DNA of 55,802 bases from an uncultured Verrucomicrobia subdivision 3 bacterium (GTDB taxonomy: Bacteria; Verrucomicrobiota; Verrucomicrobiia; Limisphaerales; UBA8199): the NCBI GenBank assembly GCA_903913865.1, contig CAIWMU010000244.1, forward strand, positions 1-55,802, read 5' to 3'. Under the pieces are notes generated by a model. That model worked only from the letters and a program-made list of their open reading frames with translations. It was not told the origin of the DNA and searched no databases. The position numbers and the translations under genes are program-made. This document shows, piece after piece, positions 13,791 through 35,634 of this stretch. How positions within the stretch are numbered: position 1 is the first letter of the stretch; the number at the start of each line of letters is the position of its first letter.

Positions 13791-14507
13791 TCAATATCCC
13801 CAGGTCTCGTGGCGGACGGGTAGGCGGTTGAGAATGGAACGGTGGAACTGCCATTTGGGCAGGAATTGATCCATCAACGTGAGGAACCGGGCGTTGTGCG
13901 ATGGTTCGAGCAGGTGAACCAGTTCGTGAATCACAATGTATTCGAGGCACTCGCGGGGCTTCCGGGCGAGGTCCGTGTTCAAGCGGATGGTTCGGGCCGT
14001 GGGATTGCAGCTTCCCCATTTGGTTTTCATGCGCTGCACAAAAACCTTTTCCACCTTCACTCCCATGAGCGGCTCCCATTTGGCAATCAGGGGTGGCAGG
14101 GCCGCTCTCAACTGCTCCCGGTACCAGGAGTCCAGCAGTTCCTGCCGCTTCGCCTGATTCCAACCGGGACGGACTCGGAGGACCATGCGGCGGTGTGCCA
14201 GATCAACCGAGGCAGGGGCTTCGGTTTCGACGATCTGCAACAGATACCGCACGCCCCACACGTAGTGGCTCTCGCGGTTCAGGTACTCACGGGGCATTTC
14301 GCGCTCCTGCTCCAACAGTTTGCTTTGCTGTTGCCGGATCCAGCCCAGTTTGGAGATGGCAAAGGCGCGAATGCTGTCGAGGCTCAGGTGGGCTGGAGCT
14401 GAAATGGTCACCCGCCCAGTGGGCGGATGCACGCTCAGGTGGACGTTTCTGATCTGCTTGCGGACAACATCCACGACGAGGTCCCCGAGTTGAACCTGCG
14501 AGTGCAT
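13791..14507 (-). CDS. YgjP/SprT-like zinc metallopeptidase, last gene of the restriction operon
   Basis: The 238-residue protein belongs to the YgjP-like (DUF45, M48-type) metallopeptidases. The zinc motif is HELVH at 194-198, with a third ligand candidate H204 in EPSHNARF. The family-typical KTKWGSCN is at 161-168, and RIRLNTDL-like (here TIRLNTDL) lies between them. Its ATG shares one base with the hsdR stop (TGATG), so it is coupled to the restriction subunit. Family knowledge: these small peptidases are often found at the end of type I restriction operons. A role in processing or turnover of the restriction complex is inference. Confidence 0.85.
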   Translation of the reverse strand: MHSQVQLGDLVVDVVRKQIRNVHLSVHPPTGRVTISAPAHLSLDSIRAFAISKLGWIRQQQSKLLEQEREMPREYLNRESHYVWGVRYLLQIVETEAPASVDLAHRRMVLRVRPGWNQAKRQELLDSWYREQLRAALPPLIAKWEPLMGVKVEKVFVQRMKTKWGSCNPTARTIRLNTDLARKPRECLEYIVIHELVHLLEPSHNARFLTLMDQFLPKWQFHRSILNRLPVRHETWGY

Positions 14508-17500
14508 CAGTATTCGGACTGCGCCTTGATGATGAGAAAAATACGCTCCACTTCGGCTGGATTGTTGTCCAGCAGCGGCAGGAGGGCTTGCTTGATAATG
14601 TTCTCCTTGGCCTGATTGCCCCGGAAGGCGTTATGACGCACCCGGAGCACCGTCTCGTCGATTTGTAACGCCAGCTTCAGCGCCCTCGCAGCGGCCTCGC
14701 TCCCATACATGCCGGGAGATTCCTGCGCCTCTTCATCGCCGGGGGGTGTGCGGGTGGTCATCAGGTTGTTATAGAGGGCTCGTTTGCCCGGTGTGTTGAG
14801 GGCGGCCGGGGTGCCATCCGCCGTGCCGGCGTGGACGGTTTTGGCAAGATCGGCGATGCGTTTCAGAAAATCCTCGTAGCTGATCCGCGATGCCTTCAGA
14901 TCGGCGAGAATCTCGGTCAGAAGCGAGGACATTCTGCCGTAGAGGGCGGGATCGTTCAGGCGCTCCTTGATGATGCGGCTTCGGACATTGTTCGCGATCG
15001 TCTCCGCGACCGCCCGCTGGTCCGTTTTGACTCCCTCCGGGAGGCTGTTGATGGCGGCGGTGATGCCGCTTTTCACCAGCAGATCGAGCAGCCCCATTTC
15101 GCCAAAATCGGAAATCCTCCTCGGCTCGGCGGCCTCGATGTAGGTGTCGATGAGGTGGCGCATGTCCGCCTCGTATGCCTTTAGATCAATGGTTTCGCCC
15201 GCCGCCTGGCGGATCGAGTCCCGCACTTTGAGGTAGTCGTTGACATTGAGCTTGATTTTCTCCACCTGATCCCCGGTGTATCCAGCCTGGGGCAGGTCAT
15301 CGGCGATGTTGGCAAAGGCGCGCACCAGCGCAGCGGTGGATGTGTAGAGGGCCACGCGCTGCGGTTCGTGTTCCTTGAGATCTTCAGGCAGCTCGGAGTT
15401 GCCGCAAAAATAGTGGATGTGTGCCAGCATGTCCCTTGGAGGTTGCACAGGGTCGCACAGCAGGGCGAGGGCTTCCAGGGCCTGATCCAGCCTCTCCCTG
15501 CCTTTCTTCAGGCGATCCTGCATCAGCACCTCCGCACTGCCGCCGCCGTCGCTTTCGTCGAGTTCGGACGTATAGACGGCGATGGCGCCCTGCACTTTCT
15601 TGAAAAGGTCCTTGTAGTCCACGATGTAGCCGAACGGCTTGTCGTCTCCGTCGAGCCGGTTCGTGCGGCAGATGGCCTGGAACAGGCCGTGGTCCTGCAT
15701 GGACTTGTCGATGTAGAGATAGGTGCAGTGCGGGGAGTCGAACCCGGTGAGCAGCTTGTCCACCACGATCAGCAGCCGCATGTTCGCAGGCTCGTTCTTG
15801 AACAGCTCCTTGACGTGATCCTCGTAGGTCTCCGTCTTTGTCTTGCCGGGCTTCGCGTCCACATCCTTGAGCAGGGCGGTGTAGGTGTTGTAGAGAAACT
15901 GCTTTTCCGTCTCCGTATTCGCCCCCGTTTCCTCCATTGTTACATCCTGGGCCTGCGGATTGTAGGAGGTCACCACCGCACATTTGCCCCTGAAGGCGGT
16001 CGCCGCCTGCTGGAACAGGCCGAAGTATTTGCACGCCTCGTAAATGCTGGAGGCCACCAGCAGGGCGTTGCCGCGCTCGCTGCTCAGCCGGGGCTTCACG
16101 CTGAAATCGAAAACGATGTCGTTCACAACGCGATCCATGCGGGAGCGGGAGCTGAGGACCTTCTGCATCGTCCCCCACTGGTCGCGCAGCGCCGCCTTCT
16201 GCCAGTCGTTCAAGGCCCGGGTCTTGGCCTCAAACCAGGCATCGATCCGGTCCTGCGAGCCGAGACTCTGCTCGATGTCCCGCGCTTCATAGACGAGGTC
16301 CAGAACCACACCATCCTCCACCCCCTCGTTGAACTTGTAGGTGTGGATGTAGCCGCCGAAGACTTCGTGGCTGGTCTGTTTGTCCTGCTTGAGCAGGGGG
16401 GTGCCGGTGAAGCCGATGAACACAGCCCCCGGCAGCATCGCCTTCATTGTCCTGTGCAGCCTGCCGCTTTGCGTGCGGTGGCATTCATCCACAAAGACGA
16501 ACAACTCCCCCACGGCCGGGGCGGGCAGCTTCTTCAATTCAGCGATGAAGGCGTCGAAATCATCCACATCCTTCCTGCCGAACTTGTGGACCAGCGAGCA
16601 GATCAGGCGGGGTCTGGCCTGGCCGAGTTGCGCCATCAAATCGCGGCCGCTGCTGGTGCGGTGGATGGCCTCGCCACTGTCGGCGAACACGCGCTCAATC
16701 TGCTTGTCCAGTTCATCGCGGTCGGTGAGGACCAGCACCCGGGCCCGGGCCACGTTCTCCAGAATCCACTTCGCCAGCAGCACCATCACGATGCTCTTGC
16801 CGCTCCCCTGTGTGTGCCAGATGATGCCCCCCAGAAAGGCGAGGATGCGCCGCTGCGCCGCCTTCACGCCGAAATACTGGTGCACCCGGGGCAGCTTCTT
16901 GATGCCTCCATCGAACACCACGAAATCGTGGATCAGCTCCATGAGCCGGTCCTTGCGGCACATCTTCAGGAGATACTTGTCGAGCTTGAAGCGGGTGTTG
17001 TCCGCCTCATCCTCCTTCCACTTGAGAAAATACTTCTCCCCGGTCTTGATCGAGCCGTAGCGCAGGCCCTCGGAATCGTTCCCGGCAAACAGGATCTGCA
17101 CCGTCGTAAAAAACCATTCGTTAAACTCCTTTTGCTGGTTGGAGAGCAACTGGCGGATGCCATCCCCGATGGAGACATGGCTGTTCTTCAACTCCAGCAC
17201 CGCCACCGCGATGCCGTTGAGGTAAAGGACGAGGTCGGGGCGGCGCTCCAAGCCCCCGCGCAGCGTCACTTCCTCGGCAATCGCGAAATCGTTTTTCTCC
17301 GGATCGGCCCAGTCGATCACCTTCACCGTTTCCGTGACCTGGCCCGCCCCGGTTTTCACGGGCACGCCGTAGCGCAACAGGGAATAAACCGCCTTGTTGT
17401 TTTCGTAGAGGCTGCGGTTGGGGTTCTTGGACTCCGTGCCAAGCAGGTGGATGGCGCGGCTGATCTGTCCCAGCCCGTAGCCCGCGTTCAGCAGGAAACC

Positions 17501-17635
17501 GGTGAGCAGCGATTCGATGATGTTGCTGTTCTCCTGGTCGCTCCGGTCCCCAAGGGTGCGGTAGCCCAGCTCATCCCGGAACAGGGCGATGACCCGGCTC
17601 TGCGTGGCGCGCTCTGGTTGGCCGATGGTGCTCAT
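14507..17635 (-). CDS. hsdR: Type I restriction enzyme subunit R
   Basis: The 1042-residue motor and nuclease subunit translocates DNA and cuts unmodified DNA together with HsdM and HsdS. The N-terminal nuclease carries RRPDLVLYLNG (D134) and VLELKN (E148, K150), the D...ExK catalytic set. The SF2 helicase core has Walker A HTQGSGKS near 274-281, LTDRDELDKQI, DECHRTQSGRL at 383-393 and GFTGTPLL. A later helicase motif is VVDKLLTGFDSP. The helical C-terminal region binds the methylase core. All motifs are intact, so the enzyme appears functional. It starts about 100 bases downstream of the DUF3800 gene stop. The long frame on the opposite strand is a shadow. Confidence 0.96.
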   Translation of the reverse strand: MSTIGQPERATQSRVIALFRDELGYRTLGDRSDQENSNIIESLLTGFLLNAGYGLGQISRAIHLLGTESKNPNRSLYENNKAVYSLLRYGVPVKTGAGQVTETVKVIDWADPEKNDFAIAEEVTLRGGLERRPDLVLYLNGIAVAVLELKNSHVSIGDGIRQLLSNQQKEFNEWFFTTVQILFAGNDSEGLRYGSIKTGEKYFLKWKEDEADNTRFKLDKYLLKMCRKDRLMELIHDFVVFDGGIKKLPRVHQYFGVKAAQRRILAFLGGIIWHTQGSGKSIVMVLLAKWILENVARARVLVLTDRDELDKQIERVFADSGEAIHRTSSGRDLMAQLGQARPRLICSLVHKFGRKDVDDFDAFIAELKKLPAPAVGELFVFVDECHRTQSGRLHRTMKAMLPGAVFIGFTGTPLLKQDKQTSHEVFGGYIHTYKFNEGVEDGVVLDLVYEARDIEQSLGSQDRIDAWFEAKTRALNDWQKAALRDQWGTMQKVLSSRSRMDRVVNDIVFDFSVKPRLSSERGNALLVASSIYEACKYFGLFQQAATAFRGKCAVVTSYNPQAQDVTMEETGANTETEKQFLYNTYTALLKDVDAKPGKTKTETYEDHVKELFKNEPANMRLLIVVDKLLTGFDSPHCTYLYIDKSMQDHGLFQAICRTNRLDGDDKPFGYIVDYKDLFKKVQGAIAVYTSELDESDGGGSAEVLMQDRLKKGRERLDQALEALALLCDPVQPPRDMLAHIHYFCGNSELPEDLKEHEPQRVALYTSTAALVRAFANIADDLPQAGYTGDQVEKIKLNVNDYLKVRDSIRQAAGETIDLKAYEADMRHLIDTYIEAAEPRRISDFGEMGLLDLLVKSGITAAINSLPEGVKTDQRAVAETIANNVRSRIIKERLNDPALYGRMSSLLTEILADLKASRISYEDFLKRIADLAKTVHAGTADGTPAALNTPGKRALYNNLMTTRTPPGDEEAQESPGMYGSEAAARALKLALQIDETVLRVRHNAFRGNQAKENIIKQALLPLLDNNPAEVERIFLIIKAQSEY

Positions 17636-17734: not shown

Positions 17735-18574
17735 CTATATCCATCGGTTTTTTATTTTCTCTGGATCGGGTGGCTGGCCTTTTCTCGTCAAAAACGTTCC
17801 ATACTCCGCGCCGCTGCGGTCGTCCACATCGTGAATCAACGAAACCTTCGACCAAAGGGCGTTCAGGAATCGTGCTTCATGCTTTTCGTAACAGCGTTGC
17901 AACGCCCACAGACAATAATCCGCCACCTGGATGCATGGCTGCTCCCACGGATACGCGGGCACGATTTCCAGCGTGGAAGCTGAGGTCAAATCGTGCTCCT
18001 TCAAAAATGTCTGGCGGGTTTCCAGCAGTTGTTTCGCCAGCGCCTCCGTGCGGTCGGATTTGCCACGCCGGGCGAAAACCACCCGGTAATGATCCTCCTT
18101 GTGCAACCGCTGCTTGAACAGCATCCGCACCGTCAGGTCGTAAAGCTCATTTGGGTGGTAGCGGTAGGTGGAATCCATCCGGTTGCGACGTTTCACATAA
18201 TCCCGCACCGCGCGCATGTCCTTGATGACTGCGTAGAACCTGAAGTCCAGGTTTGTCAGCAACTCAAACACCTTGCTGCGGATTTCCGCGTGGTCGTCCT
18301 TCGCGTGAAACGCGCGGGCGGTCTTTTGAGCTTCGGGCTTCAGCGAAAAAATTGTCGCGTAAAGCGGATGCTTTTGCAGCCACTCCCGCAGTCCCGCCAG
18401 TTGCCGCGCCACCTCCGCTTCCGCCGCGCAACGCACCATGCCCAGCATGAAAAACTGCTGGGCGCCTGCATCCTGCAAGCGATCACGGCCCATCGGCCCG
18501 AACAGCACGCCGTCCCCGGCTTCATCCACATGGTAGGTGACAGCGGCAGGCGGGGATTGGCGGAAGTCGTTCAT
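17735..18574 (-). CDS. DUF3800-domain protein in the type I restriction operon
   Basis: The 279-residue protein shows the DUF3800 pattern: an early acidic DEAGD at 17-21 after a beta strand, and a late conserved QVADYCLWALQR helix. Other acidic positions (MGRDRLQD, HAKDDHAEIR) lie between. Family knowledge: DUF3800 proteins have unknown function and a suspected RNase H-like fold. They often sit near defence genes. Its ATG overlaps the hsdS stop by four bases (ATGA), and hsdR follows after about 100 bases. I infer an accessory role in this restriction system, not a separate housekeeping gene. Confidence 0.8.
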   Translation of the reverse strand: MNDFRQSPPAAVTYHVDEAGDGVLFGPMGRDRLQDAGAQQFFMLGMVRCAAEAEVARQLAGLREWLQKHPLYATIFSLKPEAQKTARAFHAKDDHAEIRSKVFELLTNLDFRFYAVIKDMRAVRDYVKRRNRMDSTYRYHPNELYDLTVRMLFKQRLHKEDHYRVVFARRGKSDRTEALAKQLLETRQTFLKEHDLTSASTLEIVPAYPWEQPCIQVADYCLWALQRCYEKHEARFLNALWSKVSLIHDVDDRSGAEYGTFLTRKGQPPDPEKIKNRWI

Positions 18575-19860
18575 GGGATGATCGTCAACCGGGTCCTGCC
18601 GGTGAGGAGTTCCTGCATCATGGCCTGCTTGAGGGCGCGGGTCTTCTCCCGACGCTGTTCCAACCCAGCCAGTTCAGTGTCCATGTCCGTCAGGACCTCG
18701 GCGATGGCGGTTTGTTCGGGGACGCTGGGAAATGAGAGCGTGACCTTGGGAATGTTGCTCTTGCTGATGCCGGAGACTTTCGTGCCCACGGAGTAGAAAA
18801 GGAACTGCTGTCGGATGGCGGGCGTCTGAAAACAAAAGCGCCGATAGTCGTGGGCCAACTCTTCGGTCCTGCCCTTTGCGACGATGGTGTGAAGGCCGGA
18901 GATGAATGGCTTCTTGTTCTTGTTCACAACGACGACGTGCTTGCTCGTGCCCGCGTCATCTTCTGAGGCGTCAACGAAAACGACATCACCGTCATCAAGC
19001 AGAGAGGCGGAGGATACGCGCTTCAAGGGGATGTCGAGCTTCGGTATCTCTTGAAAGTCGGCATCGGCATCGATGCACGTCTTTGTTGAGCCGTGGATGT
19101 CACCGTAGTGCAAGTAACAATGGCCTTCCGTCGAGAGTTGGTCGCGGGAGGCGGAATAGCCGCCGCTGAAATTGAACAACTCCCCCAGCCTCTTCACCTC
19201 CCACTCGCCGCGGAAGCCGGGGAGGCGGGTTTGGCCGGTGAGGAGTTGCTGCATGGCGGCCTGTTTGATGTCGCGCTTCTTGGCGATGAGCCGGTCCAGC
19301 CCGCCCAGCAGCGCATCCACATCACCCAACGCCTCCGCGATCGCGCGTTGCTCGGGGAGGGGGGGAAGCGGAACAGGCATCGTCCGAAGCGTTCCAGCAT
19401 TTATATTTTTCTGTGCTCCGCCGATCTGGCCTTGCTCAAAGAATTTCTGACCTTCTTCGGAGTTAATGTAGTGGCAAAGGAATGAACTATCGACCACTGT
19501 CGTGTTGGGCCGAGTGATGAGAGTTGTAAAACTTTGCGCCGATTCGTAGAGCAACGGGACGACGCAGGTTGTCCCCGGGTAGCCCGTTCTAGCGGTCAGT
19601 AAGTCGTCGCTGCGAAGCCTCTTGTTACTGAAAGTCTTTTCGAATTCAGGATCTAGAAACAGCAGGTCCACATCGGCGAGATAGCCAGACTTGATGTTCT
19701 GATTTCTGAACATGGGTACACCTTTTGCCCTGTAGGCGTGCGTCGCAGCACTTGCGATACCGACCATGATTCTCTCGGTAAGCGAGGCCAGTGCCTTGAC
19801 CTCCCAATCCTCCGGGATCACGCCCACCTCGGTCTGCTTATATCCGGGTTTGATTTTCAT
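18571..19860 (-). CDS. hsdS: Type I restriction enzyme specificity subunit
   Basis: The 429-residue DNA recognition subunit has two target-recognition domains, each followed by a conserved coiled-coil spacer. The first half opens TEVGVIPEDWEVKAL and ends LPPLPEQRAIAEALGDVDAL with LLTGQTRLPGF. The second half opens GFRGEWEVKRLGEL and ends VPEQTAIAEVLTDMDTELAG with LLTGRTRL. The halves are clear internal repeats, so a two-part recognition sequence is expected; the bases cannot be read from sequence. The ATG at 19860 overlaps the stop of the frame running out of the rhuM remnant, and its own stop overlaps the DUF3800 start. Confidence 0.95.
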   Translation of the reverse strand: MKIKPGYKQTEVGVIPEDWEVKALASLTERIMVGIASAATHAYRAKGVPMFRNQNIKSGYLADVDLLFLDPEFEKTFSNKRLRSDDLLTARTGYPGTTCVVPLLYESAQSFTTLITRPNTTVVDSSFLCHYINSEEGQKFFEQGQIGGAQKNINAGTLRTMPVPLPPLPEQRAIAEALGDVDALLGGLDRLIAKKRDIKQAAMQQLLTGQTRLPGFRGEWEVKRLGELFNFSGGYSASRDQLSTEGHCYLHYGDIHGSTKTCIDADADFQEIPKLDIPLKRVSSASLLDDGDVVFVDASEDDAGTSKHVVVVNKNKKPFISGLHTIVAKGRTEELAHDYRRFCFQTPAIRQQFLFYSVGTKVSGISKSNIPKVTLSFPSVPEQTAIAEVLTDMDTELAGLEQRREKTRALKQAMMQELLTGRTRLTIIP

Positions 19861-20306
19861 CGTGCGTCGCCCCTTTCACGTGCGGGTCGGTTCCGCATTT
19901 TCATCCCGGAGAGATGAGAGCCATTAGCCGGGGGTTGAGCGGAGCGACACCCCCGGAACGCGGGAAGGGAATGTGCTCGATCCCAGCGGGATCGCAGGGT
20001 GTTTGGACTGGATGATAAAATGGATTGTGGATGCGTGTGGGGCTGGCATCCCGCTGGGATGCGGGTTGTGATTGCGACGTGGACCGGTGGTGTCGTCGCG
20101 TTGCTCCTCAACCACCGGCTAATGGCTGGGAACCCTCCGGGTTCTGGGGGGGCGGTGTTTGCGTGTGTGCGTGGGTCTTCGGCGGATGCACGTGCGTGGG
20201 GGGCGGGGATGGCGCGGACCTCGATGCCCTTTTCTCCGTCCTGCGAGGTGCAGGCAAGGAACCCGGCGGGGCTGTTGCGAATCTGGATTTTCTTCTCTTT
20301 GCTCAT
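19857..20306 (-). pseudogene. RhuM-family gene remnant, interrupted by a dispersed repeat
   Basis: The first 31 residues, from ATG 20306 (KKIQIRNSPAGFLACTSQ, then GEKGIEVR), match the start of virulence RhuM-family proteins, which are frequent passengers between hsdM and hsdS. Past about base 20213 the family sequence stops, and the frame runs through the composite repeat as Pro/Arg/Ser-rich residues. It closes at 19857 on ATGA, overlapping hsdS. The start also overlaps the hsdM stop by four bases. The gene has therefore lost nearly all of RhuM but keeps an unbroken frame from hsdM to hsdS. Confidence 0.7.
19922..20150. repeat. Composite dispersed repeat inside the rhuM remnant
   Basis: The parts, left to right, are: a type B hairpin at about 19922-19955 (GGGGGTTGAGCG...CACCCCCGG); a palindrome with GATCCCAGCGGGATC near 19979-19993; a matching CATCCCGCTGGGATG near 20048-20062; and unit A at about 20077-20146, nearly identical to 1651-1720 (GGTGGTGTCGTCGCG core). 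The same units occur in another order in the IS at 1617-1895. The shared palindromic TCCC-N3-GGGA arm at both loci suggests that the arm is either the target or the element end. Confidence 0.65.
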
Positions 20307-22759
20307 GGCTGGCATCCCATTCTCTTGAGATGGCCCGCGACTTTGGCAGCGAGCGCTTCCACCTGGTTGGTAATTTCGGGGAGCGGGGTGGCGTAGCGAT
20401 CGGCGAGCTGGCGGATGCGGCCGGTGAGGGTTTGCGAGACGCGGTCCAATTCCCCCTGGACGGCGGTGGCGAGGGTGGTCAGCCATTTGTCCTCCACGAC
20501 GAGGGTATGGATCTCGGCCTCGGTGAGCTGGCCATAGCGGGCGGCTACTTTTGCCATGAGATCATCCTGCGCGGTCTTGAGCTTTGTGCCGGTTTCGGCT
20601 TCCTGCTCGGTGAGGGCGAGGTAGTCCTGGAGCGCCTGGCGTTCTTCGGCGGTGTCGGGATCGGTCCTGCCGATGTCTTTCAACCTGGCGGCGGCGGAGG
20701 CTTTGGTGAGCTTGTCTTTGTCGTTCCGGGCATCTTCGAGCAGACCGCCTTCGCCAGTGTGTTCCTCGGCCATTTCCTCCAGTTGCTGGGCGATGGTGGC
20801 GAGCCGGGCCTCCAGCGCATCGATGGCGGCCTGTTCCCTGACGTAGTAGCGGGCGATGAGGAGGGCGGGGGGGATCAGCTCGGTGGTGTATTTCTTTTTG
20901 CCGACGATGAGGTCGGGCCTGGCTTTGGCCTTTTTGGACTTGTCCTCGACGATAAGCCGGGGCTGGGCGGCCTCGTGCCAGCCATCGGCGGCGATGAGGT
21001 AGCAATCGTCCTGCATGGATTCGGCCCAATAGTCCATGAGGTGCTGATAGAGGTCGTAGGCGTCGAGCAACGGAGCTTGTTCAAAGGTGGCGAGGAGGGA
21101 CTCGGAGATGGTTTCGATGAGGGCCTTGGGATGGCCGCCCCGGGTGAAGCCTTTCAGCTGCGGGGTGCAGGCCTTTTTCCATACGGCGAAGGTCTGGGTG
21201 GCGGTGGCATTGAAGGCGGTGAACTCCGGGTGCTCGAAGATGGCGGGCTTGATCCCGGCGGCGGGGAGGCGGAGCTGGCTGTAGCCGGGGCGGGCCTTCT
21301 TGAACAGGGCTGCGCGGACGGCGGGGATGACCCGCCAGTAGGGGTTGAGGGCGTCGATGTCGCGGTCGGGGATGCCGCCGTGCAGGTGGGCGCCGATGTC
21401 CTGCAAATCCTCGGCATCGGTGCTGTCGATGTAGCGGGGGAGGTTGAGGTTGTAGTCGTTTTTGGCGCTGCTGATCTCGGTAACGGAGACGAGGCGGGCG
21501 TAGCCGGGGATTTCGACCTGGCGGGTGAAGGTGTCCACGATGCGGTGGATGTCCTGCTCGCGGAGGCGGTTTTTTGCGCCGTCTTTGCGGAAGCCCGTGC
21601 TGGCATCAACCATGAAGATGCCCTTGCGGGTCTGGGCCTGATCCTTGTCCAGAAGGATGATGCAGGCGGGGATGCCTGTGCCATAGAAGAGGTTCGCGGG
21701 GAGGCCGATGATGCCCTTGATGAGGCCGCGCTGGATGAGGTTTTTCCGGATCGCCCCCTCGGCGTTGCCACGGAAGAGGACACCATGCGGGAGGATGCAT
21801 GCCCCTTTGCCGGTGCTTTTGAGGGAGCGGATGATGTGCAGGAGGTATGCGTAATCCCCCTGCTTGGCCGGGGGCACTCCGTAGCCGGAGAAACGGCCAA
21901 AAGGATCGGCATCGGGTGTGAGGCCGGTGCTCCAGCGTTTGTCGCTGAAGGGGGGATTGGCGACGACGTAGTCGAAGGTCTTGAGAGTGCCGCCATCCAG
22001 GAAGAGGGGGCTGGCGAGCGTGTTTCCCTGCTTGATCTCCGCCGTGGCGTAGTCGTGCAGGATCATGTTCATGCGGGCGAGGCTGGCGGTGGAGGAATCC
22101 TTTTCCTGACCGTAGAGGGTGACGCGCACGTTTTTGCCGTGTGCGGCGGTATCGCCGATTTTCAGGAGGAGGGAGCCTGAGCCGCAGGTGGGGTCATAGA
22201 CGGTGGTATCGTTGCTGGTTCTGGCATGGCGGATGCCCAGGATTTGGGCGATGACGCGGCTGACTTCCGAAGGGGTGTAGAACTGGCCCTTGCTTTTGCC
22301 GCTCTCCGTGGCGAAGTGCCGCATGAGGTATTCGTAGGCATCGCCCAAGAGATCGTCGCCATCGGCGCGGTTTTGGGAGAAATCGAGGGCGGGGTTTTCG
22401 AAAATGGCGATGAGGTTGGTGAGGCGCTCCACCATTTCCTTGCCGCTGCCGAGCTTGTTCGGGTCGTTGAAGTCCGGCATGTCGGACAATTGGTTGGCCT
22501 GTGCGAGCGGGCCAAGGATGCGTTTATTGATCTGGTCGCCGATGTCCGATTTGCCCTTGAGGGCGACCATGTTGGCGAAGGCGGCCCCCGGCGGGATGGT
22601 GATCGGCGCGTAGGGTTGGCCCGCGTATTTGTCGCTGACGTATTTGACGAACAGGAGGACGAGGACGTAATCCTTGTATTGGCTGGCATCCATGCCGCCG
22701 CGAAGTTCATCGCAGCCGGACCAGAGGGAGGAGTAGAGTTCTGATTTTTTAAGGGCCAT
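20303..22759 (-). CDS. hsdM: Type I restriction-modification methyltransferase subunit
   Basis: The 818-residue N6-adenine methyltransferase subunit begins at ATG 22759 (MALKKSELYSSLWSGCDELR, the usual HsdM_N start). QFYTP is at 159-163, the SAM motif DPTCGSGSL at 189-197, and the catalytic motif NPPF at 268-271. After the methylase core (to about residue 480) comes an unusually long C-terminal part ending in helices rich in Lys, Glu and Ala, likely coiled coil. This is longer than the common form of about 500 residues but is known for some HsdM proteins. Upstream in-frame starts add unrelated residues. It is first in the operon. Its promoter should lie between 22760 and the IS left end at 22962. 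Confidence 0.95.
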   Translation of the reverse strand: MALKKSELYSSLWSGCDELRGGMDASQYKDYVLVLLFVKYVSDKYAGQPYAPITIPPGAAFANMVALKGKSDIGDQINKRILGPLAQANQLSDMPDFNDPNKLGSGKEMVERLTNLIAIFENPALDFSQNRADGDDLLGDAYEYLMRHFATESGKSKGQFYTPSEVSRVIAQILGIRHARTSNDTTVYDPTCGSGSLLLKIGDTAAHGKNVRVTLYGQEKDSSTASLARMNMILHDYATAEIKQGNTLASPLFLDGGTLKTFDYVVANPPFSDKRWSTGLTPDADPFGRFSGYGVPPAKQGDYAYLLHIIRSLKSTGKGACILPHGVLFRGNAEGAIRKNLIQRGLIKGIIGLPANLFYGTGIPACIILLDKDQAQTRKGIFMVDASTGFRKDGAKNRLREQDIHRIVDTFTRQVEIPGYARLVSVTEISSAKNDYNLNLPRYIDSTDAEDLQDIGAHLHGGIPDRDIDALNPYWRVIPAVRAALFKKARPGYSQLRLPAAGIKPAIFEHPEFTAFNATATQTFAVWKKACTPQLKGFTRGGHPKALIETISESLLATFEQAPLLDAYDLYQHLMDYWAESMQDDCYLIAADGWHEAAQPRLIVEDKSKKAKARPDLIVGKKKYTTELIPPALLIARYYVREQAAIDALEARLATIAQQLEEMAEEHTGEGGLLEDARNDKDKLTKASAAARLKDIGRTDPDTAEERQALQDYLALTEQEAETGTKLKTAQDDLMAKVAARYGQLTEAEIHTLVVEDKWLTTLATAVQGELDRVSQTLTGRIRQLADRYATPLPEITNQVEALAAKVAGHLKRMGCQP

Positions 22760-22961
22760 GAGGCTTAAGGATTCGGTGGATGGGCGGAGCAAAAGGAGAG
22801 TCTCCGGCAAACGGCAACTTCCGCCCCCGCCAGAACTCCGGCAAAATTGAGGTCATCGTTTTTCATGGAGCATGTCCGGTTTCGACTGGCCACCACAGGT
22901 GTATGATGCTCAGTGTGGCTGAAGACTGCACGAACAAATTTTGGGGGTGAAGGGGGGGCCG

Positions 22962-24847
22962 CAGGGTCTTTTTGGGTGAAGTCGTAAGTTGTTGAAGGGC
23001 AGTGAGGAGAGAAAGTAATAGACAAGAGCCGGGATTTTTGGTGTTCTTAATTGGGATGAAAGAGCACAAAAATCGTATGGCTAAAAAGAAAAGCGGGCTG
23101 ATCAGCGTCCGTATCCCTCTGGAGGAGGAGATTGGATGGTTTGACCAGTTATTGGATGACAAGCATTACCTGGGTGCCGGCAGACCGGTCGGGGACTACC
23201 TGAGGCAGGTGGTGGAGGTGGACGCAAAGCCTGTGGCCCTGCTGGTCTGGGGTCCTGCCTGTTATGCCCTCAAGGATCGTGACAAGTGGATTTCGTGGAG
23301 CACGGTTCAGAGGCTCGAGCGGCTCAAGCTGATTGTCCAGAACCGGCGTTTTCTGGTTCTGGCTGAGAAGGGCCAGAGCCCCAATCTGGCCTCACAGGCG
23401 ATGGGGGCGGCCCTGCGGGCCCTGCCGGGGCAATGGCTCGAGAGTTTCGGCTACCTTCCTTTGCTGGCCGAGAGTTTCACCGACCCGGAGGCCTATGCGG
23501 GCACCTGTTACAAGGCCAGCAACTGGGAAGCGGTCGGCATGAGTGCAGGCCACAGCCGGCACCGGGCCGATTTTTACCGGCCCAATGACCGGCCCAAGAA
23601 GCTCTGGCTGAGGCCGCTTTGCCCGCAGGGGCGGGAGCTTTTAAGTGCGGCGCAGCTGCCCCAAGGGTGTCTTGGGGGTGTGATTGCCGCGCCATCGGGC
23701 ACGCTGCCCCTTAAGGCCGCCGAACTCGGTTCGTTGCTCGATGTGTTCCGCCAATCCCCGGACCCGCGAGCCTCCAACACCACCTTCCGCACCTATTCGG
23801 TCATGACGTTGATTGCCATGGCACTGCTGGCCGGCCGGAGGGACATTGCCGAGATCGCAAGGTTTGCAACCACCCTGAGCCAGGCGCAGCGCCGGCGCAT
23901 GGGGTTCCCGCGCAAGCGGGACACCAAAGCCTTCTGGCGGGTGCCCAGCTACAGTGTGTTCTATCAGGTGCTCCGGCGGATGGACCCGGAAGCCTTTGCC
24001 AAGTTGCTGAGCCAGTGGTTGCAGAGCCGGGCCGGGAGCCTGCCCGGGGCGCTGGCCATGGATGGAAAGATGATTCGCGACCACATCGGCCTGCTCACCC
24101 TGGCTCAGCACGAGGACGGGGCTCCTGTGGCCGTGGCCGTCTATGACCAGAAGGAGGGGACCGAGCGGTGCGAACTGAGCGCCGCCTGCGATCTTCTGGA
24201 GCAAATACCGGCATTGGACGGCATGATGATCACCGCCGATGCCCTGCACTGCCAACGCACCCATGCTGCAGCCATCGTGGAAAAGGGGGGTGACTACCTG
24301 TTGCAGGTCAAAGCCAACCAGAAGAAGCTCTTCAAAAAAGCCCGTGCACTCGACAAGCTCAAGGACACCCCCTTTTTGTCCATACACAATCCGGGCACGG
24401 GCGCGTAGAAACCCAAGCCATCCACGCCTTCCCCATCGAGCCTCTGGAGGCAAATTTTCCACACGCCCGAACTCTCGTTGTTGTGCGCAGCCAGCGCACG
24501 GTTAAGAAGACCGGCCTCACCAGTACCGAAACCCGGTTTTACCTATCAAGCGCCGAACCTGACCATTACGAACCCGGCCAATGGCTCGGCCTGATTCGCG
24601 GACATTGGGCCGGTGTGGAAATCCGCAACCACTGGCGCCGGGACGCAATCATGGGAGAGGACGGATCCCGTTCCCGCAATCCGCAAATCCTGGCCAATCT
24701 GGCCATCATCCGCAGTGCGTTGCTCTGCGCCCTGGCCGAGCAGCCCGGGGGCAGATCCCAACCAGAAATCCACGACTCCCTGCATTTGAACCCAGGCCAA
24801 TGCTGGAAAATCCTCAAGAGCTTATGACGTCAAAACAAAAGCCCCTG
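22962..24847 (+). mobile_element. ISAs1-type insertion sequence with DruA-domain transposase
   Basis: The element is 1886 bases long. Imperfect terminal inverted repeats can be read: the left end starts CAGGGTCTTTTTGG at 22962, and the complement of the right end starts CAGGGGCTTTTGTT at 24847. Over 36 positions I count about 26 matches, continuing with TGA-GTC-TAAG blocks. I see no clear target duplication. It holds a single transposase gene. It landed about 200 bases upstream of the hsdM start and next to a small ATPase-like fragment. Confidence 0.7.
23056..24827 (+). pseudogene. DruA (DUF4338)-ISAs1 transposase fusion, one frameshift
   Basis: Residues from about 10 to 195 form a DruA-like DUF4338 domain: HYLGAGRPVGDYLRQV, the NRRFLVL/NLASQAMG block and GTCYKASNW. 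An ISAs1 transposase follows, opening LLDVFRQSPDPRA. The DDE set is MDGKMIRD, ITADALHCQ and, after a frame change, IMGEDGSRSRNP. The first frame stops at 24406. The correct continuation GHGRVETQAIHAF is in the -1 frame. A missing T in the C5T5 run at 24368-24377 would explain this. The catalytic Glu lies beyond the break, so the single-frame product is inactive unless slippage occurs. ATG 23077 is an alternative start. Confidence 0.75.
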
Positions 24848-29130: not shown

Positions 29131-32019
29131 ATGCCGATAAAAGACAACAAAGCAGACAAGACCTTGGAGGCAATCCTCAGAGACCATGCACTCGTAATCC
29201 CGGACTACCAAAGGGGTTACTCATGGGGAGAAGAACAATGGAAAGATTTTCTGGATGACCTGAGCCGAATACCGGCTGGAGAGCCCCAGTACATGGGAGT
29301 GTTAACGATGCAGCGGGGTGCCGATACCAACGAGTTCACAGTGGTTGACGGCCAGCAACGTCTCACGACGATTCTGATTCTCTGCGCGGCACTACGCCAG
29401 AGATTGACGCAAGAACAAGGGTGGCAGAATGGCAACGGCGACCTGCTGGACCCACTGGATAACCTGCTTTGGTCTAACGCGCCTGATCGAACGCCGCGAT
29501 TGCGTTACGCCGCGCTGCAGGAGGAATACAAGACCCTAGTTCTAATTTTCCGATGGGAAGAAATCGAATATTCAGGAAATCAAAGTGTTTACTCGGCTAA
29601 CCTGCGTGCGGCGGCGAAACATTTTCTCAGCCACCTTCAAGGCAAGGGAATCCAAGAAGTGGTGACCCTCGGGAGGCAACTTCTGGGATTCCTGTGTTTC
29701 GAGCCCATTTTCATCGACGAATGGCAGGCCTTTATCGTCTTCGAGTGCCTGAATAATCGGGGCAAGAAGCTCTCGATGATGGAGTTGCTCAAAAACCGGT
29801 TGCTGTACTTGTCCACACTGCTACCCGCCCCGAACGGCCAAGTGGACCCGCTGGCCACACGGCGACAAATTCGTGATAAGGTGAACGAAGTGTGGGGGCA
29901 TGTCTACAAACAGCTTGGAATGATTCAAATAGGGGAGGAGGAGCCGGATACTTCCTTCCTTCGTGACCACTGGATCATGCGATGGGCACGCAAGCGTTCG
30001 AAGGGCGATGCCTTCAAAGAGCATTTGCTGGGAGAGGTGTTCCATGCGCGACGGGTAACCGCCAAGCGGACAGACTGGCGCTATCGTCAGGCCGACATAC
30101 GGGACCCGCGGAGGTTGATTAGTGACCTTCGGAGTCCGAAAGGCGAGGATGACAGGAAAAACAACTTGAGAGCAATTTGGGACACTTGTAGGAAAAGCCA
30201 AGAGTTGGTGGGAGAAGGCCTGAGTAATACAGATGAAGAAGCTTTGCGAGATGCCATTCTGGCGGACCTGAATTCTTGGCTCGCGACAGGTGGCGCCGTC
30301 CAGAAGGAGCGTCGTGAGGAGATGGACAAATTGTTAGAGCAGTACTTGACAAAGGCGGAGAGTGGGCCTCTTGATGCCGATGAAGTGGGGCGTTACTGCG
30401 ACAATTTGAAGGAATCGGTGGATTGCTGGGTGTGCCAGTTTCGACCGGACTTGCTACCAAGTCTGCTTCCTGAGGTTCTGGATCTGAATGAAACAAAGAC
30501 GTGGATTCGACGACTGAGCGATCTTGAGTGCGGGTATGCTCGTCCGCTGTTGATGGCGGTCCTGCTCCGACTGCGGCAACAGTCGAATGAAGCCACCGTG
30601 CTCCTAACGAACCGAATCTTGGCGCGATTAGAGAGGTTGGCATTCTTGGATGAACTAATCGGCAGGCCGAACACAAGAGACAAAGTGCAGGCGCTCGCAC
30701 GGGAGTTCTGGAAAAAGACCCATGGCAACGGCGCCACCGAGACGCCGTGGGTCGAGACGGCGGAGGAACTTGACAAAATAGCAAACCATTCCAAGGACAT
30801 TTACGATGATCTGGTGAAGCGGGTTAAAGAGCGGTATCAGGCAGCCAAGCGCGATGGATTCTACGGATTGGGAACTGCATTGAGCTATCTGCTGAGGGAA
30901 TATGAGTACGAGTTGCGGCTGGCGGCAATGAACGACAATCAAGGGCTTTTCAATGCTTACTTGGAGCCGGGAAGACCTGGCCAGTTGTCGGTGGAGCACG
31001 TGTTCCCACAGAACACAGATGACGGTGATTGGCAGGAATTCCCTGCTGCGGGTGGAGCAGATGACGGTGGTAAACGGCAGATTCTGCTCCATTCGCTCGG
31101 AAACCTCGTGTATGTGACCAGCCGTTTCAACAGGCAGGTTTCCAATCACGCTTATGCGTATAAGAGAGCAGCATATAGGATGCCTGCTCCTCCCAACGCC
31201 GGCGGCCCGATAGACCAGGCTGCCGCAGATGGGCTTCCGCAGCCCTCCGGGACGATGGGAACTGCCAAAATTGCAGAGAACGACAATTGGACCCCGGTTC
31301 AGATCAGAGACCGTGGGTTAGAGCTCTTGACTTTTATCGAGAAGCGTTGGAGTGTATGTTTGGGTAATGTCGCCGAAAAAGTCGCGCTATTACGACTTAG
31401 CTTTGTTGATCCGCAAACTCAGCCTACCCCAGTTGCCTTACCGCTACAGATGCAAGATCGGCCATTGGCTACCATTACGACTCTGCGAGGACGGAATAAC
31501 ATGCTGCGCAATCTGGAGCAGTTCGCACCGCCGGCGACATTGGCGCAGTTGGTTGCGACATGGCAGGTGGCCCCATTCGCCTTTTATGATGACAGAGGAA
31601 TTGACACGATACTGCAGTATGAGGATCTTGTTGTTGCCGTGAGAAATGGCGATGAGGAAAAGCTCAATAAGATGTTGCCGAATACTTGGGCCGGGGTATT
31701 AAACGGCTTTTTTTCAGGGTTGGCGATTCAAGACATTGAGATCCTGAGGTTGTTTTTTTTAGAGAATCGTGCAGGGCCATATGTTGCAAGACAAGTGTTC
31801 CCCAATGCTGGGGACCTTGATATAGCGAAAAACCGAGTGAATAACGCAAGGGTCGCCGCTAGACAGAATGTGGGGAGCGCAAACAAGCTATTTGAGCAGA
31901 CGGCGCGCGAGGCGGTTGCGCAACTTTGGGCAAATCCACCCGATTTGGGTGGGCATTTTAACGCCATCAATGAGAATTGGCGCGAATTGGTGCGGGGCAT
32001 CCTCCTTGCCGACCTTTAG
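29131..32019 (+). CDS. GmrSD-like DUF262/DUF1524 restriction-type protein
   Basis: A 962-residue protein with two recognised ends. The N-terminal DUF262 domain has IPDYQRGYSWGEEQW at 23-37 and the nucleotide-binding motif DGQQRLTT at 73-80. The DUF1524 HNH-type nuclease lies around 620-680: VEHVFPQ, with H623 and P626, then LGNLVYVTSRFNRQ and the YKRAAY tail. About 260 residues follow with no domain I recognise. Family knowledge: GmrSD-type enzymes are NTP-dependent type IV restriction systems that attack modified phage DNA. Base use is more AT-rich than the neighbours, suggesting transfer. Both catalytic ends look intact. Confidence 0.85.
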   Translation: MPIKDNKADKTLEAILRDHALVIPDYQRGYSWGEEQWKDFLDDLSRIPAGEPQYMGVLTMQRGADTNEFTVVDGQQRLTTILILCAALRQRLTQEQGWQNGNGDLLDPLDNLLWSNAPDRTPRLRYAALQEEYKTLVLIFRWEEIEYSGNQSVYSANLRAAAKHFLSHLQGKGIQEVVTLGRQLLGFLCFEPIFIDEWQAFIVFECLNNRGKKLSMMELLKNRLLYLSTLLPAPNGQVDPLATRRQIRDKVNEVWGHVYKQLGMIQIGEEEPDTSFLRDHWIMRWARKRSKGDAFKEHLLGEVFHARRVTAKRTDWRYRQADIRDPRRLISDLRSPKGEDDRKNNLRAIWDTCRKSQELVGEGLSNTDEEALRDAILADLNSWLATGGAVQKERREEMDKLLEQYLTKAESGPLDADEVGRYCDNLKESVDCWVCQFRPDLLPSLLPEVLDLNETKTWIRRLSDLECGYARPLLMAVLLRLRQQSNEATVLLTNRILARLERLAFLDELIGRPNTRDKVQALAREFWKKTHGNGATETPWVETAEELDKIANHSKDIYDDLVKRVKERYQAAKRDGFYGLGTALSYLLREYEYELRLAAMNDNQGLFNAYLEPGRPGQLSVEHVFPQNTDDGDWQEFPAAGGADDGGKRQILLHSLGNLVYVTSRFNRQVSNHAYAYKRAAYRMPAPPNAGGPIDQAAADGLPQPSGTMGTAKIAENDNWTPVQIRDRGLELLTFIEKRWSVCLGNVAEKVALLRLSFVDPQTQPTPVALPLQMQDRPLATITTLRGRNNMLRNLEQFAPPATLAQLVATWQVAPFAFYDDRGIDTILQYEDLVVAVRNGDEEKLNKMLPNTWAGVLNGFFSGLAIQDIEILRLFFLENRAGPYVARQVFPNAGDLDIAKNRVNNARVAARQNVGSANKLFEQTAREAVAQLWANPPDLGGHFNAINENWRELVRGILLADL

Positions 32020-33924: not shown

Positions 33925-35634
33925 TTACCCTTTGGCGGGGATGGTTGAAACGACCCCCAGAAGTTGGCGTGCCCGGCTTGAGCCCATGAAGTATCCAATC
34001 TGGTCAAACTCGTTTAGGTCGGCCTTTGGGCCATAATCCACGAGCAACACAGCGAGGGCGTCCAGACCCTTTGCGCGGTGCACGGAGAGCATGCCGATTT
34101 CGCCGGTGCGGCGTTCAAGCTGATTGACTAGCGGACATCCGGCCAACTCGTTGCAGCCTCGAAGGGTGGAGTCTGTTTTTTTGCTGCGCGCAGAGAGAAC
34201 CAGGACCTGATCCGGTTTGCACCAGCCCTGATCTATCCAGCTGCGAATAATCCGGTTTGCCAGGGCGGCTGCCTCACCATCTCCCGCAGTTTGCTCCACC
34301 ACGAGCGGCCCATCGGGGAGTGGGCCTTGCTGGACCAGACCTTCTTGAACGTCCTTGAGCGCGGGCATGACCAGCGATTTGAGATGCTTGAAGATCGGCA
34401 GGCTGTAGCGAACGGTGCGTTTCAAGCCCACCTGGACCGGATGGAAATTCTCTGTGTTCAGGAGCGCATCCAGGCTGAACCCCCCGCCGCCTCGGAATTG
34501 TGGCCGCTGGGCCGGATCCAGGAAGACCGCCACCGGGGAACGGCTGCCCTCCTTCAGCAGGGACCAGTAGACCCCCCACCAGCCTGGCCCGGACCAGTCC
34601 GACGGGAATCCGGGAATCGCCGTATCGTGGTCCTGACCTTCGTCGACGATCATGCAGTCGAACTCGGGTGGGCAACTTTTGTCGCGCACGATTTGAACCA
34701 GGTAGTGCGGGAGTGTCTGCTCGTAGAAATGGGTTCGGTCTGCACTCCCGGCGGGGACGTCATACTCCAAGCCGACACGGGTGATCAGTTCGGAGGCAAG
34801 CTCCTCCCATGCCCTCACCACAACGTCTCCAGCCCGCAAGCGTTTCCTGGCCCTGGCTCGGGCAACCAGTTCCCGGATGAAGGCCGTTAGCGCCAGATTG
34901 TAGCAGAGAAAAAGAACCCTGGCACCGTCATTGGCCCAACGGGTCGCCTGTTCCAAAGCCATGAATGTCTTGCCGCTGCCTGCACCCCCGCGCACCAAAA
35001 ACTGGTGGTTATCCTCCAGATTGTCGAGGAGATCGAATCCGACCTCGGTTTGGCGGATCAGAGCCCGGTCAGTTTCGTCCACAAAATGTCGCACCGCTTT
35101 CGGGGTGGCATCCCTGCCAAAGGAATCGAAAAAGATTTCGCGCGAGCGGCCGTCGGCCTTGGGCATTCGCTTGTCCCAGATTTGCGTGAAGTCCTGAAGA
35201 TCGCGCCGGTCATAAATGAGTTCGCGGTCAATGCCATGGTGGTCTGCAGCTCCTGGGGCAACCGAGGTGCCGGGGAGTGCCAAAGCTCTGGCCACGAAGA
35301 GCCGTGGGCGGCCTCCCTGTGTCTGATTCACCTCTTGCATGACCCCGCACCACTCTGCGTCCAACTGCATCTGCGGGTGGTCCCCATCGGCGGTGCTCCA
35401 TTTCCCAGTGTAGGGATTGTGGCATAGGTTGCCGACCTTCGCCTCCAGCACCAGCAGGTTTCCTTTTGGTCCTAGAACGAGAAAGTCCCCCTCCCTCAAT
35501 GTGCCATGGTTGTCGTGGTAATGGAATCCCCAGCGGATGATCCAATCGTCGCTCAGGTCGCCCAGAAACTCGGCTGTCTGTAACTCGCCAAGACTGCACT
35601 TCTCGGGAGGACGATTCAAGATCCACAAGGCCAT
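33925..35634 (-). CDS. NERD-domain SF1 helicase (UvrD-like)
   Basis: A 569-residue protein. The N-terminal NERD (nuclease-related) domain has E48-D50 in REGDFLVLGP and E64/K66 in LVLEAKVG, a D...ExK nuclease pattern. The SF1 helicase core follows: Walker A GGAGSGKT at 216-223, DEGQD at 331-335, a QvADv-like arginine block in VGLKRTVRYSLP, and VHRAKGLDALAVLLVD near the end. Nuclease plus helicase in one chain is common among solitary defence proteins. Its position at the edge of the defence region supports that, but a DNA-repair role is equally possible from sequence. Confidence 0.85.
   Translation of the reverse strand: MALWILNRPPEKCSLGELQTAEFLGDLSDDWIIRWGFHYHDNHGTLREGDFLVLGPKGNLLVLEAKVGNLCHNPYTGKWSTADGDHPQMQLDAEWCGVMQEVNQTQGGRPRLFVARALALPGTSVAPGAADHHGIDRELIYDRRDLQDFTQIWDKRMPKADGRSREIFFDSFGRDATPKAVRHFVDETDRALIRQTEVGFDLLDNLEDNHQFLVRGGAGSGKTFMALEQATRWANDGARVLFLCYNLALTAFIRELVARARARKRLRAGDVVVRAWEELASELITRVGLEYDVPAGSADRTHFYEQTLPHYLVQIVRDKSCPPEFDCMIVDEGQDHDTAIPGFPSDWSGPGWWGVYWSLLKEGSRSPVAVFLDPAQRPQFRGGGGFSLDALLNTENFHPVQVGLKRTVRYSLPIFKHLKSLVMPALKDVQEGLVQQGPLPDGPLVVEQTAGDGEAAALANRIIRSWIDQGWCKPDQVLVLSARSKKTDSTLRGCNELAGCPLVNQLERRTGEIGMLSVHRAKGLDALAVLLVDYGPKADLNEFDQIGYFMGSSRARQLLGVVSTIPAKG

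Follow-up and report, generated by a model that had tools for sequence, protein, structure and literature searches.

In IS1, IS3 and the IS427 group of IS5, the whole DDE site of the transposase is present only on a frame-fusion product (PMC3281130). For an IS630 element of Roseiflexus, it was found that RNA polymerase loses one C at a T5C5 motif under the influence of a hairpin in the nascent transcript, the published argument being that an rU:dG pair is tolerated and an rC:dA pair is not (PMC5009743). Where a single transposase family shows frame changes in opposite directions, this has been interpreted as pointing to transcriptional realignment (PMC3711429).

DUF4338, or DruA, has so far been listed as a defence protein. 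In fusions with DndF, it was already recognised as a GNAT domain (NAR 2024, PMC10853773). Mom, another protein that will be of importance below, modifies adenine in phage DNA (PMC7824862). A literature search found no published link between DUF4338 and Mom and no report of DNA-modification activity for any DUF4338 protein; it also found no paper joining DruA with ISAs1 and none on ISAs1 with a programmed frameshift, most subscription papers lying outside the search.

Here, we describe an insertion sequence (IS) in which these themes meet. The locus is an ISAs1-type IS that carries an N-terminal DruA/DUF4338 domain, predicted to be a Mom-like GNAT, on its transposase and has its DDE domain split, probably deliberately, at a C5T5 slippage site; the abundant product of the first frame would be modifier-like, and slippage would keep the transposase scarce.

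Architecture of the element

The window, i.e. the whole stretch of DNA that was analysed, comprises 55,802 nucleotides from an uncultured Verrucomicrobia subdivision 3 bacterium (assembly GCA_903913865.1, contig CAIWMU010000244.1). The DruA-ISAs1 element spans 1886 bp (22962..24847, + strand), as defined by inverted repeats at both ends and by CAGGG-ended relatives with target duplications of 9-10 bp. Its 27-bp terminal inverted repeats (left, 22962..22988, +; right, 24821..24847, −, from the comparison of the ends) start with CAGGG and agree in 20 of the 27 outer base pairs (CAGGGTCTTTTTGGGTGAAGTCGTAAG / CAGGGGCTTTTGTTTTGACGTCATAAG), which confirms the readable repeats reported by the first-pass annotation.

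The first frame, orfA (23002..24408, +), encodes 468 aa from a GTG, with in-frame ATGs at 23056 and 23077; profile matches identify the DruA domain and the N-terminal part of the ISAs1 transposase. The DruA/DUF4338 domain occupies residues 46-185 (23137..23556, +; Pfam PF14236, 54.1 bits against a cut-off of 27, E=1.8e-14). A DUF4338-like N-terminus had been proposed before any profile search, with residues 10-195 chosen beforehand as the segment for a refuting test; the match at residues 46-185 lies within it and the proposal stands. Further downstream are a DDE_Tnp_1_assoc domain (residues 247-340, 23740..24021, +; PF13808, 1.6e-13) and two catalytic Asp residues, assigned from the sequence and the ISAs1 profile: D354 ('MDGKMIRD', 24061..24063, +) and D413 ('ITADAL', 24238..24240, +).

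The ISAs1 transposase profile NF033564 matches in two pieces. Residues 267-449 of orfA correspond to profile positions 1-180 (E=7e-27), and the remainder (238-311, E=1.5e-13) matches orfB (24294..24827, +; 'VHTQSGHGRVET...'), a frame in the −1 register that encodes the C-terminal part of the DDE domain and is under purifying selection. It contains the Glu of 'GVEIRN' (24618..24620, +), located by sequence, which we take to be the third catalytic residue of this DDE family. The DDE site is divided in this way, with D354 and D413 in orfA and the Glu in orfB. Of the initial description, a DruA-like domain and an ISAs1 DDE domain joined in one frame, both domains hold but the single frame does not: orfA ends with a stop at 24408, and the rest of the catalytic domain is read in the −1 frame up to 24827. 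The slippage motif CCCCCTTTTT (24368..24377, +), read in orfA as the codons ACC CCC TTT TTG, matches that of the −1 relatives in position and sequence. In possessing an ISAs1-type DDE transposase and CAGGG inverted repeats, the element belongs to the ISAs1 family; it departs, by the split at 24368-24377, from the single uninterrupted transposase gene that is typical of the family without defining it. The split transposase is treated here as an ISAs1 variant common to dozens of relatives.

The element is inserted next to a restriction-modification (R-M) operon, an association that may be due to chance. The operon is of type I, as the first-pass annotation had recognised, with HsdM outside the element (20303..22810, −; PADLOC MTase_I), HsdS (18571-19860) and HsdR (14507-17635); a DUF3800 protein (17735-18574) is embedded in it between hsdS and hsdR. 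A PIN protein and a GmrSD-type enzyme are also found near the element. Around it, no Druantia genes (druB-E partners) were detected among the type I R-M, DUF3800, PIN and GmrSD neighbours. As a separate observation, the stretch beyond the IS looks like a defence region, with the GmrSD-type restriction enzyme at 29131-32019 and a NERD/SLFN-like helicase protein at 33925-35634. Two further DruA-ISAs1 copies (L049 and L052) also lie beside restriction-type genes, namely an HsdS-like ORF and an annotated DNA methyltransferase.

A split conserved in place and in motif

Relatives were compared from Verrucomicrobiota genomes, one viral contig and Thiodictyon plasmids. After removal of duplicates, 33 distinct elements have their transposase interrupted at one and the same position: 13, including an N-terminally truncated copy (L013), need a −1 frame change, and 20 need +1. 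The −1 group, to which the window element belongs, has a run of C followed by T (C4-6T4-6), with L022 as a deviating member (C8T); the +1 group has a run of T followed by C (T2-7C3-6T), and in two of its members (L014 and L028) a stop codon comes next after the motif. The direction of the frame change mostly tracks the clades of the tree, L022 again being the exception. In five relatives (L001, L004, L005, L008 and L034), the slippage motif is identical at a synonymous-site divergence (pS) of up to 0.73.

The DruA-less ISAs1 transposases in the fetched set that span this region are encoded in a single frame (386, 455 and 357 aa). Among the DruA-ISAs1 fusions, single-frame exceptions are the elements of one complete genome, G082, and a few others (L029, L071). 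G082 harbours at least 11 near-identical, active single-frame copies of 2165 bp (L053-L063), which lack a slippage site and carry target duplications of 9-10 bp. Splitting is therefore not obligatory; in G082, it was lost or never arose.

Proposed mechanisms of the frame change

In the +1 group, a hairpin adjoins the motif on its 5' side in 16 of 20 elements, compared to a background of 21% in windows from the same genes (at least 5 pairs, MFE of −6 or lower, ending at most 4 nt from the motif). The mean MFE at the motif position is −9.0, versus −2.1 to −5.6 at 16 other offsets. The boundary between the C and T runs occupies codon phases 0, 1 and 2 in both groups, and slippage of the polymerase thus suits the data better than slippage of the ribosome. 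By analogy to the Roseiflexus element, the frame change of the +1 relatives would be RNA-polymerase slippage at a hairpin-T5C5 site, deleting one C, an assignment that is strongly supported. Ribosomal slippage on CCC_U was also considered for this set and dropped, since the placement of the hairpin and the variable codon phase favour a transcriptional event.

The window element does not have this hairpin-driven T5C5 layout; it has C5T5, the direction −1 and no hairpin. The −1 group as a whole gives no hairpin signal (4 of 13 versus the 21% background; z of +1.09 for the window hairpin), which leaves it outside the demonstrated hairpin mechanism. A downstream RNA stimulator was found in neither the +1 nor the −1 set (mean z −0.14 and −0.17, respectively). 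Extending the published argument on rU:dG and rC:dA pairs to the mirror motif, we would expect C5T5 to favour insertion over deletion, which would give −1. For the −1 type of the window, we infer that either the mirror motif C5T5 causes the insertion of one nucleotide or ribosomal slippage takes place on the C run.

A purely ribosomal event, in which tRNA-Pro slips −1 on the C run (C_CC.C) of the window copy and RNA polymerase plays no role, is a serious contender that we slightly disfavour. It would resemble what happens in other −1 frameshift insertion sequences. In E. coli, shift-prone sequences include C_CC.C, C_CC.U and C_CC.U_UU.[A/G/U] (PMC4066793); all −1 elements have at the site a Pro codon with a C before it, and the missing upstream hairpin fits as well. 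The occurrence of the C/T boundary in all three codon phases and the lack of a downstream stimulatory structure in the −1 set argue against it, as do the sister elements that need +1 at the mirror motif, which suit transcriptional realignment.

The DruA domain resembles Mom of phage Mu

Structure prediction gives the DruA domain a GNAT fold, for which Mom of phage Mu is the nearest match. Models were generated with AlphaFold for the window domain (pLDDT 71, pTM 0.72) and for an IS66-linked DruA (pLDDT 73, pTM 0.62). The best VIA match of both is Mom (8bv8), with Z of 11.2 versus 9.6 for the next GNATs in the case of the window model and 14.1 versus 11.9 for the IS66-linked one; Foldseek ranks Mom first for the latter and near the top for the former. 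Profile-profile comparison of DruA and Mom by hhalign gives E=1.5e-7, and the hits of the DruA profile include a Mom protein from a phage (L099; E=4e-36 against Pfam Mom). Direct sequence comparison of DruA to the PDB yielded only chance matches to defensins. Against the Pfam Mom model (PF25680, cut-off 27.1 bits), the window DruA scores 12.4 bits and the best DruA (L039) 26.1 bits; because these scores are below the cut-off, the domain is labelled 'Mom-like' rather than Mom.

Ser131 of the 'NLAS' motif (23392..23394, +) aligns with the catalytic Ser of Mom, the position mutated in 8bv8 (S124A), and is invariant in the 20 DruA sequences aligned. Alignment with Mom extends to the HY, R, D and GxxYxASN motifs, and the His, Arg, Ser, Tyr and Gly motifs that align with its active site show little or no variation among DruA proteins. 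We infer from the modelled fold and these residues that DruA may modify DNA. The first-pass annotation had instead suggested that the domain handles DNA ends or target choice; as stated, this finds no support, the fold and the conserved active-site residues pointing to a Mom-like acyltransferase, i.e. a base modifier. That DruA is a catalytically idle or DNA-binding module which steers the ends or the choice of target appears doubtful to us: a role in transposition would be natural for a domain that four IS families carry either on the transposase itself or in a gene next to it, and a fold by itself is no proof of activity, but an idle module is hard to reconcile with the near-invariance of the Mom-aligned motifs, and the separate ORF in IS66 indicates that tethering to the transposase is not required.

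DruA in other mobile elements and its relation to Druantia

The joining of DUF4338 to a transposase, which the first-pass annotation had singled out for a survey, is a recurrent association with mobile elements and not a one-off. Among the sequences fetched, DruA occurs with four IS families: it is fused to the transposase in ISAs1, IS4/Tn5 and IS701, and it forms a separate ORF in IS66, located either before tnpC or between it and tnpB. In the DruA tree, sequences sort by transposase family, the IS4, IS701 and IS66 forms being set apart from the ISAs1 forms (100/98), and the associations are therefore old and stable. All these sequences were collected for their similarity to the window protein from one bacterial phylum, one plasmid collection and one viral collection, and the set hence is no measure of the frequency of DruA elsewhere. 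Among plasmids, only Thiodictyon yielded DruA, the phage records gave no match, and a scan of the viral collection with the IS66 DruA protein also gave no match. Two forms stand apart from transposases: a stand-alone DruA protein of 258 aa on a viral contig, away from any transposase, which matches up to the end of the profile (L098, 4737-5510), and a 1207-codon ORF that combines a DruA-like region with a STAND-like ATPase and recalls the published DUF4338-DndF fusions (L106, 6075-9698).

In 387 Verrucomicrobiota genomes, the PADLOC DruA model detected only a 93-codon open frame and one DruA-ATPase fusion; it matches transposon DruA weakly or not at all, and the window protein is unmatched. 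The DruA of Druantia could descend from the transposon-borne form, a recruitment that the first-pass annotation had suggested, as the domain is old and diverse in insertion sequences and nearly all DruA ORFs of the fetched sample reside there. We regard this descent as rather unlikely: the tree contains no authentic Druantia DruA, the PADLOC model barely recognises transposon DruA, and phage and ATPase-fused forms also exist.

Split elements are mobile

No target duplication is visible at the window copy (flanks GGGGGCCG and TTCCTCGC), and it is the only full copy in its own genome assembly; this copy may thus be immobile. A contig of this genome has a second DruA fragment, 43% identical, at its end (L002, 12-170; G000, contig C37), and further copies may therefore hide in gaps of the assembly.

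Two Thiodictyon plasmids carry identical split copies of 2057 bp, annotated as a transposase and a 'hypothetical protein', which are flanked by different 10-bp target duplications (cctcgcaggc and gataccctgg). Four identical split copies of 1904 bp are present in genome G193, where a search around them found no target duplications. Both halves of the split transposase are under purifying selection, pN/pS of orfB ranging from 0.29 to 0.81 and being mostly below 0.6. Identical split copies with 10-bp target duplications imply that split elements move and that the split is programmed rather than a product of decay; a programmed frame change is strongly supported. That a simple inactivating mutation caused the split and left the window element a dead fossil is highly improbable and already contradicted for the family as a whole by the recurrence of the split, at one motif, in 33 distinct elements, by selection on both halves and by the identical mobile split copies, even if this element is a single full copy without target duplication and several relatives are clearly degenerate (L010, L030, L032, L071).

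Model and implications

A programmed split in combination with a Mom-like domain could operate in the following manner: The default product of the window gene would consist of DruA and the transposase half bearing the two Asp residues, i.e. two of the three catalytic residues. Only a −1 slip, by transcripts or by ribosomes, would yield the complete DruA-DDE transposase as a minority product. Slippage may thus keep the active transposase scarce and jumping rare while the modifier-like domain is plentiful, and the abundant orfA product may modify DNA as Mom does, perhaps to protect or mark the DNA of the element itself. The recurrence of this layout in dozens of related elements suggests a built-in DNA-modification activity together with a deliberate brake on jumping.

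A more far-reaching picture, which we put forward as speculation, would make DruA a Mom-type enzyme of transposons that places a modified base in target DNA or in that of the element itself, retained as an accessory activity by four or more DDE IS families. The ISAs1 elements would then produce the modifier in bulk, and RNA-polymerase slippage on mirror C/T motifs would ration the transposase; the defence versions (Druantia, DndF fusions) would be offshoots.

If the domain is a Mom-like modifier on common insertion sequences, its function becomes directly testable. If this is true, DUF4338 matches alone cannot be taken as Druantia, and transposons gain a strategy of self-modification so far known from phage Mu. 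With the motifs of opposite polarity, hairpin-driven RNA-polymerase slippage would no longer be limited to the one published IS located in the literature but would reach a family of at least 20 natural variants, and these motifs would constitute a natural test of what sets the direction of slippage.

Comparison with known systems

The element shares with the ISAs1 family the NF033564 DDE transposase, the DDE_Tnp_1_assoc domain, CAGGG-type inverted repeats and, in relatives, target duplications of 9-10 bp; it differs in its extra N-terminal DruA domain and its two-frame transposase, whereas the fetched DruA-less ISAs1 transposases that cover this part are single-frame. To Mom of phage Mu (PDB 8bv8), the DruA domain is linked by the predicted GNAT fold, by profile similarity and by the HY, R, catalytic Ser, D and GxxYxASN motifs; unlike Mom, DruA stays below the Pfam Mom cut-off and is fused to or carried by insertion sequences. 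Druantia DruA belongs to the same Pfam family (PF14236), but the window has no druB-E partners and the PADLOC DruA model misses its protein. The DUF4338-DndF fusion (PMC10853773) has the DUF4338 GNAT domain in common with the element; it is part of a defence ATPase system and not of a transposon, and the accessible part of its description mentions neither Mom nor Druantia.

With respect to the frame change, the IS427 group of IS5, IS1 and IS3 likewise obtain the complete DDE site only via frame fusion; their sites are mostly A-rich and act by ribosomal −1 shifts, whereas the DruA-ISAs1 elements use C/T runs in both directions. The Roseiflexus IS630 element, a member of another IS family, has a hairpin directly 5' of T5C5 and needs +1, as do 16 of the 20 +1 DruA-ISAs1 elements; the window element, in contrast, has the mirror motif C5T5, needs −1 and lacks the hairpin.
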